Notes under the pieces: generated by a model
What the model was told of the DNA's origin: nothing
Seen by the model: only the letters and a program-made list of their open reading frames with translations
Database searches by the model: none
DNA from: Marmoricola endophyticus
Lineage (GTDB): Bacteria; Actinomycetota; Actinomycetes; Propionibacteriales; Nocardioidaceae
Direction of reading: 5' to 3'
Assembly: GCF_014644415.1 (NCBI RefSeq)
Contig: NZ_BMKQ01000001.1
Coordinates: 400,569 to 464,568, forward strand
Length of the DNA stretch: 64,000 nt
Part shown: piece after piece, positions 2,813-58,848 of the stretch
Numbering within the stretch: position 1 is the first letter of the stretch
Layout: each line of letters begins with the position of its first letter
Made by a program: the position numbers and the translations under genes

Positions 2813-3418
2813 TCAGTCGTCGACACCACGGGCGGCAAGTGCGTCACCGAGGCGGTCGGCGTGGCGCAGCGTGCGTACGAGGAGCGGCACGGCGAAGGCG
2901 CGCGGCGAGCTGCCCAGCCCCCGCGCGAGCTGGGCCTCCCGGACCTCGCCGGCCAGTCCCACGACCACCGGGACGGAGCGGATGCCCAGGCCGAGCAGCA
3001 GGCCCACCCGCTCGGGGTCGACGCCGATGCGTCGCAGCGGCCGGGCGACGCGGACGACGACGTCGACGAGCTCGGTGGTCCGCGTCGTGAGCGTGACGAG
3101 GGCAGCCAGCAGCACGAGGACGAGGATCACGCCGACGACCACGACGGCCCGCTGCCACCCGGAGACCAGGAGGTGGAAGGCCGCGAGCACGACCAGCAGC
3201 CACAGCAGCGGACGTACCTGTCGCCAGAGCACGAGCGGTCCGAGACCGGCGGCGGCGTAGAGGGCGAGCGTGACGACGAGTGCCCCTCCCACCGACCACG
3301 GCGTGCGCAGGAAGATCGAGACGACGCCGGCGACGACCAGGGTCGCGAGCTTCGCGCCGGCCGGCAGCCGGTGGAGCACCGACGTGCCAGGACGGTAGAG
3401 CCCGAGAGTGGTCCTCAC
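2813..3418 (-). CDS. bioN: BioN-like ECF transporter transmembrane protein (EcfT)
   Basis: 201-residue membrane protein, the T-component that couples ATPase and substrate-binding subunits of an energy-coupling-factor transporter. Several hydrophobic spans are evident (for example LVVAGVVSIFL and LWLLVVLAAFHLL). Both Ala-Arg-Gly coupling motifs typical of EcfT occur near the C-terminus (QLARGLG and AARGVDD). GTG 3418 overlaps the stop of the upstream ATPase gene. With bioY in the same strand group it most likely serves biotin uptake; the open frame extends upstream only across the ATPase gene. Confidence 0.88.
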   Translation of the reverse strand: MRTTLGLYRPGTSVLHRLPAGAKLATLVVAGVVSIFLRTPWSVGGALVVTLALYAAAGLGPLVLWRQVRPLLWLLVVLAAFHLLVSGWQRAVVVVGVILVLVLLAALVTLTTRTTELVDVVVRVARPLRRIGVDPERVGLLLGLGIRSVPVVVGLAGEVREAQLARGLGSSPRAFAVPLLVRTLRHADRLGDALAARGVDD

Positions 3419-4101
3419 CGGCCCTCCATCAGCTGTCGGTACGTCGACACGGCCTCCGCGGGTGCCGCGTCGGCGACGACGTGCCCGCGGTCGACGACGA
3501 GCACCCGGTCGAAGGGTGCGAGCAGGTCCAGCTGGTGGGTCACGAGGACCACCTGCTGCGGGAGCCCGGCGACCCGCTCGGCGACCCGACGCGCGTTGGC
3601 CAGGTCGAGGAGAGTGGTCGGCTCGTCCATCACGACGATCTCGGGTCGGGTGATCAGCACGGCGGCGAGCGCGAGCAGCTGCTTCTGCCCTCCGGAGAGC
3701 AGGTGCGCCGGGTGGTCGCGGTGCGCGGCGAGGCCGGCGAACCCGAGCCACTCCTCGACGCGCTCGGCGGTCTCCTCGCGGGAGAGCCGGTGACGGCGCA
3801 GACCGAAGGCGAGGTCCTCGGCGACGGTCGGCATCACGATCTGCGCGTCGGGGTCCGTGAAGCAGAACCCGACCAGTCGGCGGACCTCCCGCCCCTGCGT
3901 CACGGGATCGAGCCCGTCGACGCGGACCGACCCCGAGGACGGGTGCACGAGACCGTTGAGCAGCCTGGCCAGCGTCGACTTGCCGGAACCGTTGGCGCCG
4001 ACGACGCCGATGCGGTGCTCGGTCAGCGTCACGCTGACGTCGTCGAGCACGCGACGGTTGTCGTAGGCGTGGGAGACCCCGTCCAGCTCGATCGTCGGCA
4101 C
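3415..4101 (-). CDS. bioM: BioM-like ECF transporter ATPase (EcfA)
   Basis: 228-residue ABC ATPase of the ECF type. Walker A is GANGSGKST near residue 34, signature LLSGGQKQ near 130, Walker B VVMDEPT near 153 and the switch histidine in VTHQ near 185. It powers vitamin uptake with BioN and BioY. The GTG start at 4101 is preceded 6 nt upstream by TACGCT (4108-4113 on this strand), so bioMN may have its own leaderless promoter in addition to read-through from the thiolase gene. It overlaps bioN by 4 nt. Confidence 0.9.
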   Translation of the reverse strand: MPTIELDGVSHAYDNRRVLDDVSVTLTEHRIGVVGANGSGKSTLARLLNGLVHPSSGSVRVDGLDPVTQGREVRRLVGFCFTDPDAQIVMPTVAEDLAFGLRRHRLSREETAERVEEWLGFAGLAAHRDHPAHLLSGGQKQLLALAAVLITRPEIVVMDEPTTLLDLANARRVAERVAGLPQQVVLVTHQLDLLAPFDRVLVVDRGHVVADAAPAEAVSTYRQLMEGR

Positions 4102-4107
4102 CGACCG

Positions 4108-4113
4108 AGCGTA
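4108..4113 (-). promoter_or_regulatory. -10-like hexamer before bioM
   Basis: TACGCT on the minus strand, 6 nt before the bioM GTG, matching the leaderless pattern seen across the window. It separates bioMN from the upstream thiolase gene, with repeat family B lying between. Confidence 0.45.
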
Positions 4114-4147
4114 GTCAGCGCCGCGTGCGGTCGTACGCCGCCCACCT

Positions 4148-4260
4148 GCAGGGCCGAGTGGCGCGCTCTACAGGATCGAGTGGTGCCTCACGCGGGCGTT
4201 CTGCCTGCAGAAGGCACCACTCGTACCTGTGCGAGGCACCACTCAACGGGAAGGTGCCGC
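4148..4260. repeat. Repeat family B cluster (GAGTGGTGC / GCACCACTC)
   Basis: The 170-bp gap between the thiolase-like gene and bioM contains one forward GAGTGGTGC (4178-4186) and two reverse GCACCACTC copies (4214-4222, 4236-4244), with CTGCAGAAG and CGTACC flanks identical or nearly so to the clusters at 46.18-46.34 and 58.68-58.85 kb. Opposed copies can form a long hairpin. No coding potential is seen. Confidence 0.8.
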
Positions 4261-4271
4261 CCGCCAGCAGG

Positions 4272-5363
4272 TCACGGGAGCGCCTCGACCACCATGGCGA
4301 CGCCCTGGCCGCCGCCGACGGCGATGCCGGCGAGCCCGTAGCGACCGGGGCCTCGCAGCAGCTGGTGCCAGAGTCGTACGACGAGGACCGCACCGCTGGC
4401 CCCCCACGGGTGGCCCAGCGCCAGCGCTCCGCCTTCCGGGCACACGCGGACGGGGTCCAGCCCGAGGACCGAGCAGCAGGCGAGCACCTGCCCGGCGAAG
4501 GCCTCGTTGAGCTCGACCACGTCGATGTCGTCGAGGGTCAGGCCGGCGAGGGAGAGGGCCTCCTGCACCGCAGGCACCAGGCCGATCCCGGGGCGGGCGG
4601 GGTCGACCCCGGAGGTCGCGGTGGCCAGGACGCGGAGCCCGGGACCAGCACCGGCGTCGGGGACCAGGGCGACCGCGGCGGCGCCGTCGTTGATCCCGCA
4701 GGAGCTGCCTGCCGTGACGGTGCCGCCCGTGCGGAAGGCCGGGCGCAGGCGAGCGAGCCGGTCTGCGGTCATCCCGCCCCGGGGTCGCTCGTCACGCACG
4801 AGCCCGCCGATGGGTACGACCTCGTCGTCGAAGGCCCCGTTCGCCCAGGCCTCGACGGCGCGGGCGTGCGAGCGGGCGGCGTACTCGTCCTGCGCCTGCC
4901 TGTCGATCCGCTGCTCCTCGGCGAGCAGATCCGCGGCGAGGCCCATGTCGGGGTCGTCGTACGGCGCCGGCGCGAACGGCGCGCGGTCGTACGCCCTCCC
5001 GTCCGCGCCGGTCCTCGTCGGTGCGGTCGACGCCGACTCGACCCCTCCCGCGAGCACCGGGCGACCGGACCGGGCGACCAGGGCGCAGCCGACGTCGATC
5101 GCCGCGAGGCCGCTGCCGCACTGGCGGTCGACGGTGAGCGCAGGGGTGCCGACGCCGAGACCGGCCGCCAGCGACGCCACCCGCGCGACGTCGCCGCCCG
5201 GACCGGTGCAGTTGCCGAGCACCACCTCGCCCGGGGGGCCGGTGACGTCCGCGAGTCGCGCGAGGACCGGGGCGGCGAGCGCGGCGGCGTCCACGTCCGC
5301 GAGCCCGTGGCCCGCGGTCCCGATCGGGGTACGCAGCGCGGCGACGATGCGGACCCCGGTCAT
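4272..5363 (-). CDS. Thiolase-family protein lacking the second catalytic Cys (YhfS-like)
   Basis: 363-residue thiolase-fold protein. The nucleophile Cys is present in DRQCGSGLAAI (about residue 82), as are the Asn of NEAFAGQ (about 286) and the His of LGHPWGASGA (about 318). The usual C-terminal CxGGG proton-shuttle cysteine is Ala (GIAVGGGQG, about 348), so ordinary thiolysis or Claisen condensation is doubtful. I chose ATG 5363; a TTG four codons upstream is possible. It follows the ligase-like gene by 12 nt and belongs to the bioY group, resembling Bacillus YhfS of the BirA-controlled yhfUTS operon. Exact reaction unknown. Confidence 0.75.
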   Translation of the reverse strand: MTGVRIVAALRTPIGTAGHGLADVDAAALAAPVLARLADVTGPPGEVVLGNCTGPGGDVARVASLAAGLGVGTPALTVDRQCGSGLAAIDVGCALVARSGRPVLAGGVESASTAPTRTGADGRAYDRAPFAPAPYDDPDMGLAADLLAEEQRIDRQAQDEYAARSHARAVEAWANGAFDDEVVPIGGLVRDERPRGGMTADRLARLRPAFRTGGTVTAGSSCGINDGAAAVALVPDAGAGPGLRVLATATSGVDPARPGIGLVPAVQEALSLAGLTLDDIDVVELNEAFAGQVLACCSVLGLDPVRVCPEGGALALGHPWGASGAVLVVRLWHQLLRGPGRYGLAGIAVGGGQGVAMVVEALP

Positions 5364-5375
5364 GGGCGGAGCCAA

Positions 5376-6287
5376 CTACACCCGCCCCGTCGCACCGTGC
5401 CCGGGGTGCGCTGCCTGCCAGCGCCTGGTGAGCGCCGCGCGGTCGATCTTGCCGGCCACGGTCAGCGGCGGCTCGTCGACGCACAGCCACAGCCGCGGTC
5501 GCCAGGCCGGCGGGAGGGCGCCGGCCGACGCGCGGACCGCTGCGTCGTCCTCGGGTGGCACCGCGGCGCCGAGGATCGCGCCCAGTCCGTCCCAGGGCAC
5601 GGCGAAGCAGGTCGCACGGCCGGCCAGCGCCGCCTCGACCTCGGAGAGCACGACGGTCGCGCCCGCAGTGGTGATCGCCTCGGGGCGACCGGTCACCGAC
5701 AGCGTCGTGCCGTCGTACGTTCCGAGGTCGCCGACGCTCGCCCAGTCGTCGCGTCGTCGCAGGGCCGGCCCGGAGCGGGCGACGTACGCCGACCGCACCC
5801 ACACCACCCCGTCCACCACCGCGACCTCGGCCCCGGGGAACGCCCGCAGGGAGGCGGCGTCGCGCCCGCAGGCGACGAAGGACAGCTCGGCGGCACCGTA
5901 GTAGTGCGCGGTCTCGACACCGACCGCCGCCGCGCGGGCCGACAGCGCGGGGGAGAGCGCGTCACCGGCGACGACGACGCGGGTGCCGGGCCGCAGCTCG
6001 TCGAGGTGCCGCTCGAGCAGCGCGGGCGTGAGCACCGCACGGGAGGCCGGAGCGTCGCAGAGACGAGCTCCGGTCGCCCGGGCGTGCACCGCCGCGAAGA
6101 GGTTCATCGTCGAGGCGAGCGGGCCAGGCACCCAGACCCGGTCGCCGGGGCGGACGCCGCTGAGGTCGGCGTACGCCGCGAACGAGGACCACCACGACGC
6201 CGTCGTACGGACGACCTCGCCGGCCGCCCCGGTCGTGCCGGAGGTCGGCAGCGCCACGTCCTGACCGTCCTGGTGGGCCGCGAGCAC
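5376..6287 (-). CDS. Short acyl-CoA ligase-like (AMP-binding) protein, YhfT/MenE-like
   Basis: 303 residues of the adenylate-forming enzyme family. The phosphate-binding loop PTSGTTGAAGE begins near residue 14, far earlier than in full-length ligases, so the usual N-terminal region of about 150 residues is absent. Downstream motifs remain: YYGAAELSF, TGRPEAITTAG, LSEVE and the C-terminal catalytic-lysine region TVAGKIDR. The loop lacks the usual Pro-Lys after TSGTTG. The frame is open upstream but offers no good start before bioY ends. Position between bioY and a thiolase-like gene matches Bacillus yhfT; an acyl or dicarboxylate substrate linked to biotin is a guess. Confidence 0.72.
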   Translation of the reverse strand: MLAAHQDGQDVALPTSGTTGAAGEVVRTTASWWSSFAAYADLSGVRPGDRVWVPGPLASTMNLFAAVHARATGARLCDAPASRAVLTPALLERHLDELRPGTRVVVAGDALSPALSARAAAVGVETAHYYGAAELSFVACGRDAASLRAFPGAEVAVVDGVVWVRSAYVARSGPALRRRDDWASVGDLGTYDGTTLSVTGRPEAITTAGATVVLSEVEAALAGRATCFAVPWDGLGAILGAAVPPEDDAAVRASAGALPPAWRPRLWLCVDEPPLTVAGKIDRAALTRRWQAAHPGHGATGRV

Positions 6288-6327
6288 GGCGGCGACGGGG
6301 TCCGGCGCCTCCAGCGGGCGGACCGGC

Positions 6328-6915
6328 TCAGGCGCGGACAGGGGTCTCGTCCGGTACGGTGCGCCGCCGCAGGAGCCCGGGGTAGGCCTGGTGGACGCCG
6401 CGCGCGACCACGGCGGCGATGACCACCTTCACGACGTCACCGAGCAGGAACAGCGCCGACCCGACAGCAGCCGCGGTGAGCGAGAGGTCGGCGCGCCACG
6501 CGGTGCCGAGGATCCCGAGCGCGTAGAGCACCACGATGCCGCCCACGACGTTGGCACCGAGTCCCCAGGCCAGCCGGTACGGCGCTCCGCCCCGCTCGGT
6601 GAGCCAGCCGATGACGTACGCCGCCACGGGCCAACCGACCAGGTAGCCGACGCTCGGCCCGGCGAAGACGCCGAGACCACCTCGACCACCGGCCAGCAGC
6701 GGCAGCCCCAGCGCGACGAGCGCGAGCATCAGCAGCACCGCACCCGCGCCGCGGCGGGCGCCGAGGATCGAGCCGCACAGCATGATCCCCAGCGACTGGG
6801 CCGTGATCGGTACGGCGCCGCCGAACGGGTAGACCGCGGGGATCACCCCGAGCGCGGCCACGACGGCGGCGAAGGTGGCGATCAGCGCCAGGTCACGGGA
6901 GGTCGAGCGTTGCAC
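6328..6915 (-). CDS. bioY: BioY biotin transporter substrate-binding subunit
   Basis: 195-residue integral membrane protein of the BioY family, the S-component that binds biotin. Typical features are the N-terminal PFGGAVPITAQSLGIML segment, the GSILGARRGAGAVLLML helix and the FAGPSVGYLVGWPVAA motif. It starts at GTG 6915, only 6 nt after the metallopeptidase stop, and leads the ligase-thiolase-bioM-bioN group. Because the gap upstream is so short, no dedicated biotin operator is visible; transcription probably enters from the peptidase gene or from inside it. Confidence 0.92.
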   Translation of the reverse strand: MQRSTSRDLALIATFAAVVAALGVIPAVYPFGGAVPITAQSLGIMLCGSILGARRGAGAVLLMLALVALGLPLLAGGRGGLGVFAGPSVGYLVGWPVAAYVIGWLTERGGAPYRLAWGLGANVVGGIVVLYALGILGTAWRADLSLTAAAVGSALFLLGDVVKVVIAAVVARGVHQAYPGLLRRRTVPDETPVRA

Positions 6916-6921
6916 GGCGCC

Positions 6922-7860
6922 TCAGGCTTCGGGGTAGTTGCGGTTGCCGGCACGGAAGAAGTTGCAGGCCTCGATGGTGCCGCGGTTCAGGCCGACGTCG
7001 AAGGCGGCGATCCGCTGCCGCGACGAGCCGTGGGTCCAGCCCTCGGGGTTGATCCGTCCCTGGGTGCGCTCCTGGATGGAGTCGTCGCCGACGACCTTGG
7101 CCGCGTCGATGCCCTCGTCGATGTCGTCGCGGGTCAGGTCGGAGATGAAGGTGTTGCCGTCGGCGTCCTTCACGGTGGCAGCGCTCCGCGTCCAGACGCC
7201 GGCCAGGCAGTCGGCCATCGTCTCCAGCTTCACCGAGTCGGAGTTCGGGCCGCTGCGGCTGCGCACCCGGCCGAGGACGCCCATCAGGTTCTCGATGTGG
7301 TGGCCGTACTCGTGCGCGACGACGTACGCCTCGGTGAAGGCGGTGTCGTTGCCGCCGAGCTGGCGCAGCACCGTGTCGAAGAACGTGAGGTCGAGGTAGA
7401 CCCGCTGGTCGCGCGGGCAGTAGAAGGGGCCGGTGTCGGACGTCGCCTGCCCGCAGCCGCCCGTGGTGACCGCCTGGGAGAACGGCACCGTGCGGATCTC
7501 CTGGTAGCGGTTGCCGGTCTGCTGGGGGTACGCGTCGGCCCAGTACGCCTGGACCGCGTTGGTGATCGCGACCAGCCGGCACTCGCGGGTGGAGTTCGCG
7601 AGGTCGGCGTCGCGCTCGCAGGCGGCGAAGTCGCCGCTGCCCTGCGTCTGGCTCTGACCCTGCGAGGAGTCGGAGCTGGTCGTACCGGAGCCGTCGAGCA
7701 GGTCGGGGGCGAAGATCGCGAGGGCGATCACCAGGACCAGCCCGCCTATGCCTCCGCCGGCCTTGATCGGGAGCGACGTGCCCCCGCGCGAGCCGCCGCC
7801 ACCGCCGGTGCGGTCCTCGATCTGCGAGGAGTCGAGGCGGGCCTTCGGGTTGAAGCGCAC
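6922..7860 (-). CDS. Neutral zinc metallopeptidase (YpfJ family), membrane-anchored
   Basis: 312 residues. The N-terminus has the family's MRFNPKARLDSSQIEDR segment and a glycine-rich stretch, then one hydrophobic span (GLVLVIALAIFA, about residue 36), a Ser/Gln-rich linker and a periplasm-side domain. The zinc-binding motif is HEYGHHIE in VVAHEYGHHIENL near residue 188. The family is common in bacteria but physiologically obscure. It starts at GTG 7860 behind a GAGGAG ribosome-binding site. bioY follows after 6 nt; whether that is functional linkage or simple adjacency is unclear. Confidence 0.88.
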   Translation of the reverse strand: MRFNPKARLDSSQIEDRTGGGGGSRGGTSLPIKAGGGIGGLVLVIALAIFAPDLLDGSGTTSSDSSQGQSQTQGSGDFAACERDADLANSTRECRLVAITNAVQAYWADAYPQQTGNRYQEIRTVPFSQAVTTGGCGQATSDTGPFYCPRDQRVYLDLTFFDTVLRQLGGNDTAFTEAYVVAHEYGHHIENLMGVLGRVRSRSGPNSDSVKLETMADCLAGVWTRSAATVKDADGNTFISDLTRDDIDEGIDAAKVVGDDSIQERTQGRINPEGWTHGSSRQRIAAFDVGLNRGTIEACNFFRAGNRNYPEA

Positions 7861-7946
7861 GGTGTCTCCTCGCCGGCGGGCAGCAGGTCAGTGATCCACC
7901 GGTACAGTAGTGGAGTCGTCGCGCGCAGGTGCCTGCGACGCCTGTC

Positions 7947-7971
7947 ACGGTCAGCCCTCGAGGCTGACCGT
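7947..7971 (+). promoter_or_regulatory. Leader hairpin before the ABC-F gene
   Basis: A perfect 10-bp stem (ACGGTCAGCC pairing with GGCTGACCGT) closes a CTCGA loop, 58 nt before the ABC-F start codon. It has no T-run, so it is not a classical terminator, but it lies in the 5' leader of an antibiotic-resistance-type ABC-F gene where attenuation is common. Function inferred only. Confidence 0.5.
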
Positions 7972-8029
7972 TCGTGCGTCCGGGTCGGACCCTGTGCGCC
8001 ACGTCTCACCATCGCCAGGAGGCCCGCTC

Positions 8030-9600
<1,571 letters not shown>

Positions 9601-58676: not shown

Positions 58677-58848
58677 TCGAGTGGTGCGTTCTGCCGGGTC
58701 GAGTACGCAGTTCCACAGGCGTGATCGCCCGTCGACCTGCAGAACGCACCACTCGTACCGGCGCAAGGCACCACTCGAGCCTGCAGAACGCACCACTCGT
58801 ACCGGCGCAAGGCACCACTCGAGCCTGCAGAAGGCACCACTCAACGGT
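58677..58848. repeat. Repeat family B cluster with 44-bp tandem units
   Basis: A forward GAGTGGTGC (58679-58687) faces five reverse GCACCACTC units. The right side is two and a half tandem units of 44 bp starting at 58736, 58780 and 58824, each reading CCTGCAGAA-, CGTACCGGCGCAAGG and GCACCACTCGA. It fills the 213-bp gap between the M20 and DUF5703 genes, which converge. No spacers differ, so it is not CRISPR. Confidence 0.85.

Follow-up and report, generated by a model that had tools for sequence, protein, structure and literature searches.

The 64,000-nucleotide stretch of Marmoricola endophyticus DNA analysed here (the window) carries a row of five genes in which the parts of a biotin transporter are combined with two enzymes. 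The open reading frames of the window, with their Pfam and NCBIfam matches, give the order bioY, ligase, thiolase fold, bioM and bioN on the minus strand. The first gene, bioY (6328..6915; PF02632, E 1.3e-33), encodes the substrate-binding (S) component of an energy-coupling factor (ECF) biotin transporter. It is followed by genes for a short adenylate-forming (ANL) ligase resembling YhfT (5376..6287; PF00501, 32.1 bits with the cut-off at 29.9) and a thiolase-fold protein resembling YhfS (4272..5375; PF00108 and PF02803). Next come bioM for the ECF transporter ATPase (3415..4101; PF00005, with TIGR04520 the best NCBIfam model at a score under its cut-off) and bioN for the T component (2813..~3418; PF02361, E 2e-13), whose GTG start overlaps the bioM stop. 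An earlier, sequence-only reading had proposed these five genes on one strand, and the Pfam domains place all of them there. The source genome (3.66 Mb, 22 contigs) is 99.99% complete. Our favoured interpretation, to which we give somewhat less than an even chance, is that the cluster is a salvage module which re-extends biotin whose side chain has been shortened, its chemistry and its substrate both being conjectural.

With bioY, bioM and bioN together in one gene row, the window holds all three components of an ECF biotin transporter, and BioMNY is predicted to function as one; the row differs from BioMNY as otherwise known in that two enzyme genes lie between bioY and bioM. The window BioY is the only BioY match in its genome, and its sole match among solved structures is 4dve (Biotin transporter BioY, E 6.6e-20). 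It retains the GDxxK motif (Asp155, Lys158), as do other module-linked BioYs, the lysine being present in 87/87 of the linked copies. A specialised, module-linked type of BioY was rejected on that count: the linked copies are canonical and therefore reveal nothing of vitamer specificity, and a stricter comparison of BioYs over all groups found nothing specific. Among the second BioYs of Bacillota the GDxxK lysine is retained in 1/14 only. Many Bacillaceae (L175-L191) have such a second bioY, often adjoining an orphan bioB, and these copies, with the lysine mostly gone, may favour another vitamer such as desthiobiotin.

The ligase is indeed a short adenylate-forming protein, as had been proposed. 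Read from GTG 6287 it has 303 codons, alternative starts at CTG 6314 or 6341 give a range of 303–321 amino acids, and an in-frame stop at 6431 together with the end of bioY leaves no space for an N-terminal domain. The ANL motifs A3, A5, A7, A8 and A10 are all found, including the YYGAAE motif and the catalytic lysine. The A5 Tyr, Gly and Glu, the A7 Asp and the A8 Arg are each present in 102/102 ligases, and the catalytic lysine in 101/101 sequences with a letter at the site, the ligase of L046 (genome G033) having a divergent C-terminus, with a probable frame shift, and no letter there. Both this ligase and the thiolase of L033 (genome G046) show apparent frame shifts, which may reflect sequencing error or decay.

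In an AlphaFold2 model (pLDDT 92.7), the window ligase resembles full-length ligases with Z ~24, McbA, chlorobenzoyl-CoA ligase and MenE being tied, and the matches to the latter two begin at their residues 147 and 138. Because the model fits the full-length ligases from about residue 140 on, the modelled fold is that of an ANL enzyme minus its N-terminal domain. The ligase is full-length in Azospirillum (483 amino acids), and most of the length is present in the Bacillota loci. The best NCBIfam model for the window ligase, NF005797/PRK07638 (487 positions), gives 54.6 bits against a curated cut-off of 518. For the window thiolase the general model TIGR01930 is best and NF005212/PRK06690 (363 positions) second, at 313.8 bits against a cut-off of 498. 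We take NF005797 to be the Bacillus yhfT type and NF005212 the Bacillus yhfS type; with both scores under their cut-offs, the window proteins are relatives rather than the equivalogs. The short actinobacterial type of MenE, o-succinylbenzoate-CoA ligase, was also considered and rejected, since NF005877 scores 50.3 bits against a cut-off of 345.

The thiolase-fold protein, which starts at ATG 5363 or TTG 5375, has the thiolase fold: in addition to the Pfam matches, its AlphaFold2 model (pLDDT 94.8) superimposes on biosynthetic thiolases with Z ~56 and 1.6 Å over ~359 residues. It also keeps the nucleophilic cysteine (DRQC), the asparagine of NEAF and the histidine of GHP, and so shares with the biosynthetic thiolases of the Zoogloea ramigera type the nucleophile, Asn316 and His348. 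Thiolases use a pair of catalytic cysteines, according to the part of PMC12329534 available to us. In the window protein the second of these, position 378 in the CxG loop by Z. ramigera numbering, is replaced by alanine. The loss is uniform. Among the module thiolases the nucleophilic cysteine is found in 95/95, the GHP histidine in 95/95 and the NEAF asparagine in 92/95, and the second cysteine in 0/94 of those with a letter at the site, where Gly (77), Ala (16) or Ser (1) stands instead; the split frame in G046 was excluded from this count. As a control, 6/6 other full thiolases of the M. endophyticus genome retain the second cysteine. Six further actinobacterial members, read by eye, likewise lack it at that position.

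In a tree, the 95 module thiolases stand apart from the six other thiolases of the M. endophyticus genome with support of 0.87, and Rhizobium thiolases without a neighbouring bioY are nested within them. The description of the protein as thiolase-fold thus stands as far as the fold is concerned, but ordinary thiolase chemistry is unlikely, because the second catalytic cysteine is gone in every member with a letter at the site. A kept nucleophile and a lost enolising cysteine fit, as far as sequence can tell, either acyl transfer alone or a decarboxylative condensation as in ketosynthases. A β-ketoacyl-ACP synthase (KAS)-like protein encoded at L095, a 7.6 kb contig of a gammaproteobacterial metagenome-assembled genome (MAG), likewise has glycine in the C-terminal loop (NSFGFGG, read by eye). 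This contig carries the ligase and thiolase together with a FabF-like gene and, again by eye, a gene that looks like accB, for the biotin carboxyl carrier protein.

The two enzymes accompany bioY well beyond this genome. In an even sample of 61 genomes of the window's family, 17, M. endophyticus included, matched the ligase strongly (E 2.7e-34 or better); the five other members of its genus had no such match. All 16 orthologous ligase loci from the same family have the order bioY-ligase-thiolase, and 15 of them also have bioM-bioN, the exception (G059) being on a 3.8 kb contig. A wide scan for the ligase motif across 84,980 species genomes gave at least 594 stretches. At least 581 were confirmed, and the analysis took the best-scoring 80 of these, an uneven sample. 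There, bioY lies within 3 kb of the ligase on the same strand in 66/80 loci, bioY and the thiolase both adjoin the ligase in 62/80, and bioMN is present too in 26/80, in 23 of these with the thiolase. Judged by record titles, the hosts belong to the Alpha- and Gammaproteobacteria, Bacillota, Cyanobacteria and Actinomycetota (Streptomyces). With one to four BioY genes per genome and genomes of 2.9–8.7 Mb, bioY would be expected beside the ligase by chance in about 1% of loci or less, and the 16/16 family loci and 66/80 wide-scan loci therefore far exceed chance.

The proposal that the enzymes are linked to bioY in distant phyla is thus upheld, in Pseudomonadota, Bacillota, Cyanobacteria and Actinomycetota, as is the linkage outside the genus which the sequence-only reading had set as a check. 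Its remark that the Bacillus type lacks an attached ECF module holds for the 36 bioY-bearing Bacillota loci, but bioMN does accompany the enzymes in many alphaproteobacteria. Plasmid records show the same neighbours in Azospirillum, Paracoccus and Sinorhizobium. In Nonomuraea they appear too, as frames without annotation, and a plasmid record of Rhizobium etli has the ligase and thiolase with bioY absent. On pSymB of Sinorhizobium meliloti Ak57, the ligase that separates bioY from the thiolase (L056, ~5531-7015) changes frame and is not listed as a gene in PLSDB, and looks broken. In an even sample of 298 Actinomycetota, with seven ligase candidates scored per genome, the ligase was found in 8, of which 7 have an adjoining thiolase and 6 have bioY in the stretch examined; in one exception (G264) the ligase lies at the end of that stretch and in another (G352) it is apparently unrelated. 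BioY occurs in 202/298 of the same genomes, so in Actinomycetota BioY is seldom accompanied by the module.

At L036, one of the 16 family loci (genome G018), a single uninterrupted frame of 557 amino acids (7517-9187, minus strand) covers both BioY and the ligase, the only such case among 101 module loci scanned. An internal methionine lies at the BioY/ligase junction, so that one protein or two are both possible. In four of the 80 loci (L065, L068, L069 and L076; one cyanobacterial, three alphaproteobacterial) bioY and the ligase are found with the thiolase not in view, three of these having bioMN; here the ligase may function alone or with a distant partner. Such loci bring in one of the two main rivals to the salvage reading, namely that biotin itself is activated on entry, for trapping or storage as a thioester, and that the thiolase-fold protein merely transfers the biotinyl group. 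The fused frame, the ligase with no thiolase in view beside bioMNY (three loci) or bioY (one locus), and the retention of the nucleophile with loss of the second cysteine are all as this would have it. We nevertheless judge it quite unlikely, given that it leaves the ketoreductase, dehydratase and enoyl-reductase-like partners described below unexplained.

The second main rival concerns regulation. The ligase and thiolase genes are known from Bacillus subtilis and Staphylococcus aureus, where, in the available portions of PMC11089781, PMC6391492 and PMC7235819, BirA is described as controlling bioY and yhfT/yhfS, with biotin repressing them. The B. subtilis parallel drawn by the sequence-only reading is sound in its protein families, and these accounts bear out the BirA control that it gives for B. 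subtilis. Palindromes resembling the BirA operator were found ahead of bioY in 36 Bacillota loci (mean 13.5/18 matches to the consensus, against 11.4 in shuffles). Repression by biotin fits acquisition rather than breakdown. It would also fit a biotin-sparing lipid response, in which the enzymes reuse or extend fatty acids under biotin shortage, with acetyl-CoA carboxylase limiting, the linkage with bioY then being a matter of co-regulation only; the partner genes, which are fatty-acid-synthesis-like, agree with this. However, the linkage also holds in alphaproteobacteria and actinobacteria, for which other regulators than BirA (BioR and an actinobacterial TetR-type, respectively) are described in the parts of the literature available to us. 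The ligase adjoins bioY also in the 4/80 loci with no thiolase in view, and is joined to it in a single open frame in L036. Moreover, without the second cysteine the acetyl-CoA route around the carboxylase is closed, and the malonyl route would be useless when malonyl-CoA is scarce. On balance, a lipid response appears unlikely.

The genes flanking the module suggest elongation of an acyl chain. Of 153 called flanking proteins, 105 entered a Pfam tally, 48 mostly short or antisense-looking ones being excluded. The commonest families were medium-chain dehydrogenases/reductases (MDR), short-chain dehydrogenases/reductases of the ketoreductase type (SDR/KR), 4HBT thioesterases and FAS1_DH/MaoC dehydratases. 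Within the bioY-bearing Bacillota loci, a MaoC-type dehydratase (DH-B) lies downstream of the thiolase on the same strand in 15/36, a FAS1_DH-type dehydratase (DH-A) in 11/36 and a KR-type SDR in 9/36; five of the 36 have ligase, thiolase, DH-A, DH-B and KR together. The D.N..H active site is present in 15/15 of the MaoC-type proteins and 0/11 of the FAS1_DH-type, and we presume DH-A and DH-B to be a pair like HadA and HadB. An MDR gene is found downstream in four Ensifer/Sinorhizobium loci, and the Rhizobium loci without bioY have a divergent MDR gene (8 loci) and/or a thioesterase gene (6 loci) ahead of the ligase and thiolase.

The fullest partner sets are those of L107 and L136. L107, from a Rhizobiaceae MAG, reads thioesterase-bioM-bioN-bioY-ligase-thiolase-SDR, followed by an MDR on the other strand. 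L136, from Erwinia persicina, reads SDR, bioM, bioN, bioY, MDR, thioesterase, ligase, thiolase and crotonase, with the MDR and crotonase on the opposite strand. For the two MDRs tested, the nearest named enzymes in the PDB are mitochondrial 2-enoyl thioester reductases (E ~1e-32). Pooled over hosts, the partners would make up one reductive two-carbon elongation cycle of ligase, condensing enzyme, ketoreductase, dehydratase, enoyl reductase and thioesterase.

A similar set might instead serve to break down biotin through beta-oxidation of the side chain, since a ligase, a MaoC-type hydratase, an SDR and a thiolase do occur together in some beta-oxidation operons. We think this most improbable. 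No acyl-CoA dehydrogenase family was found among those matched by at least two of the 105 flanking proteins, enoyl-reductase-like and thioesterase partners are present, and many hosts look biotin-dependent. The cysteine for thiolysis has been lost, and the papers cited above, in their available parts, describe repression of the genes by biotin in both B. subtilis and S. aureus.

The hosts themselves often hold few biotin-synthesis genes. In the M. endophyticus genome there was no bioD match, and no bioA or bioB match above the model cut-offs. Over the family, bioB exceeds its cut-off in 20/61 genomes, and was found in only 1/17 ligase-bearing genomes (G051) against 19/44 of the others (Fisher p 0.006 for all 61 genomes and 0.034 on the 45 better ones, uncorrected for kinship). 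It is also missing in 5/7 further Actinomycetota with ligase matches. Of the 17 family genomes with the ligase, 13 were covered by the bioA and bioD models. bioA exceeded its cut-off in 2/35 tested genomes and bioD in 4/35. As aminotransferase matches of E 1e-60 or better occur in 34/35 genomes, nearly all under the bioA cut-off, bioA is the weaker evidence.

For the wide scan, 43 named hosts were drawn from 44 of the 80 loci (L131 excluded), including four without bioY and two without the thiolase in view. bioB was found in 24 of them, and a BioD-like match of more than 100 bits, a line of our own choosing for a real BioD, in 15 of 23 bioB-bearing hosts. Over the 43 hosts, 16 have both bioB and bioD, 8 bioB only, 2 bioD only and 17 neither; for the 39 with bioY in view the corresponding numbers are 15, 8, 2 and 14. 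Thus 27/43 lack bioB, bioD or both, and many of the hosts look, from their gene content, like biotin auxotrophs. At least two BioYs are present in 23/30 hosts tested, and in 6/8 bioB-only hosts the second bioY adjoins bioB. At L104 (genome G381, Neobacillus fumarioli), which belongs to another of these eight hosts, an orphan bioB (from 7067, plus strand) stands head to head with the module bioY (5920-6831, minus strand), possibly joining two salvage routes in one locus. A second bioY beside bioB is comparable to the way in which auxotrophs with bioB only are described as using desthiobiotin (PMC9561691, in the part available to us), and would be a parallel salvage arrangement.

These counts bear directly on a role with precursors such as pimelate or desthiobiotin, and on co-occurrence with the biotin-synthesis genes, both of which the sequence-only reading had put forward. 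As a general role the former finds no support here, and the genes checked (bioA, bioD and bioB) are often missing, in the window's genome as elsewhere. A BioZ-like role, in which the enzymes would provide pimelate or another dicarboxylate to biotin synthesis, has three points in its favour: the chemistry would fit, bioB and bioD occur together in 16/43 named hosts, and the available part of PMC11089781 calls the source of free pimelate in B. subtilis unknown. It is very improbable all the same, since pimelate could not feed biotin synthesis in the many hosts (27/43) without bioB, bioD or both, nor in M. endophyticus. We therefore rejected pimelate or precursor supply as the general role; subject to the caveat that several of the named hosts are drafts or MAGs, de novo biotin synthesis cannot be what the module generally serves.

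Re-extension of shortened biotin is, in our view, the simplest account of import, activation, condensation, reduction and release in biotin-scavenging hosts. BioMNY, or BioY alone, would import biotin and its look-alikes, and the ligase would activate the carboxyl of a biotin with its valerate chain shortened by beta-oxidation. The likeliest substrate would be bisnorbiotin. Beta-oxidation of biotin yields bisnorbiotin, which fits because exactly one C2 unit is needed to reach biotin. The thiolase-fold protein would bind the acyl group through Cys82 (Cys89 by Z. ramigera numbering) and, without the cysteine that enolises acetyl-CoA, might condense it with a malonyl thioester as a ketosynthase does. 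Ketoreductase, dehydratase and enoyl reductase would then finish the C2 unit, and a thioesterase would release biotin; the window's host would have to find these partners elsewhere in its genome, the three reductive and dehydrating steps being borrowed from fatty-acid metabolism. On this view the window operon would combine a transporter with the opening half of a module for two-carbon acyl elongation, a description we hold tentatively and lean slightly away from. The fuller picture of vitamin repair, in which scavengers import biotin with a shortened side chain and rebuild it with a dedicated C2 cycle whose thiolase was turned decarboxylative and ketosynthase-like by loss of one cysteine, is more doubtful again. 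The gene content and order, the linkage in distant phyla, what the active sites have lost and kept, the partner genes and the gaps in biotin synthesis of many hosts are observed; elongation rather than breakdown, the use of malonyl and the identity of the substrate are the parts that we infer.

Several observations weigh against re-extension. On the side of the thiolase-fold protein, 4/6 of the further actinobacterial members have a cysteine one residue ahead of the lost one, and a profile comparison with one KAS aligned just the nucleophile. On the side of linkage, the ligase and thiolase occur without bioY in view in 14/80 loci, mostly of Rhizobium, so another role exists or has evolved, and the four loci with bioY and ligase show no thiolase in view. 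The module-linked BioYs resemble ordinary BioYs, and recognition of shortened biotin by any of these proteins is conjecture on our part. The window's own operon has no KR, dehydratase (DH) or enoyl reductase (ER) gene, and no KR, DH, ER or thioesterase was recorded beside the family operons, where only the five core genes and a ypfJ-type gene were looked for. The top PDB match of the MDRs is a structural-genomics entry, 'putative NADPH:quinone reductase', and since the NCBIfam model closest to them is that of the PIG3 quinone-oxidoreductase family, under its cut-off, they are best described as putative enoyl reductases. The SDR of L075 matches FabG models under cut-off only, and those of L107 and L136 score best on generic SDR models. 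MaoC together with SDR is found in variants of beta-oxidation too. Biotin raised bioYB in Paracoccus denitrificans, and the bioYMN operon of Corynebacterium glutamicum is described as biotin-inducible, in both cases by the parts of the accounts available to us. Finally, bioB and bioD occur together in 16 of the 43 named hosts, and several named hosts are drafts or MAGs whose completeness is not stated.

Compared with known systems, the window shares with B. subtilis yhfU(bioY)-yhfT-yhfS the same protein families on one strand and in the same order (the B. subtilis order being as the earlier reading gave it), and with S. aureus yhfS-yhfT, a part of the BirA regulon, an uncharacterised pair of ligase and thiolase-fold protein, which in those two species is under biotin control. 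It differs from both in having bioMN attached and a ligase without the N-terminal domain. The BioZ pathway, a KAS III-like condensation towards pimeloyl-acyl carrier protein, likewise recruited a condensing enzyme to biotin metabolism, but one of another family, and the hosts of the module often lack the later bio genes. In the salvage of desthiobiotin by orphan bioB (PMC9561691, as far as its available part goes), auxotrophs also keep an enzyme that converts an imported vitamer to biotin, by insertion of ring sulphur rather than by the side-chain extension proposed here.

The yhfT/yhfS genes and their biotin control are already in print. In the open-licence literature we found no paper assigning the reaction of the two enzymes, which appears to be undescribed as the sequence-only reading had supposed, and no account of this function in work on bisnorbiotin, vraA/vraB and biotin, biotin catabolism or vitamer salvage; subscription journals lie mostly outside this search. 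Apparently new are the linkage across phyla, whether or not bioMN is attached, the second cysteine's absence throughout the module thiolases, the elongation genes found beside the module and the paucity of biotin-synthesis genes in the hosts. Together, the lost cysteine, the partner genes and the auxotroph-like hosts turn an unassigned pair of genes into a testable salvage hypothesis. If it is correct, the usable pool of biotin in soil and host fluids would be larger than assumed, genome-based predictions of biotin auxotrophy would need revision, and the conversion of a thiolase to a ketosynthase through one lost residue would be open to study.

Two further features adjoin the module genes in the window. 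Between the thiolase gene and bioM lies an inverted extragenic repeat (4156..4244) with three copies of GAGTGGTGCCTC/T. This 12-mer is clustered there and at 58765-58842, with 7 matches (at most one mismatch) in the window against 0.78 expected; it is perhaps a dispersed extragenic repeat of the M. endophyticus genome, and the copy at 4156..4244 probably has no tie to the enzymes. At gathering thresholds, Rfam gave a single match over the whole window, a tRNA. Upstream of bioY on the same strand, after a gap of 6 nucleotides, is a gene for a ypfJ-type zinc metallopeptidase (6922..7860; PF04228, NF050010 above cut-off), which we did not count in the system but which may be co-transcribed with bioY.

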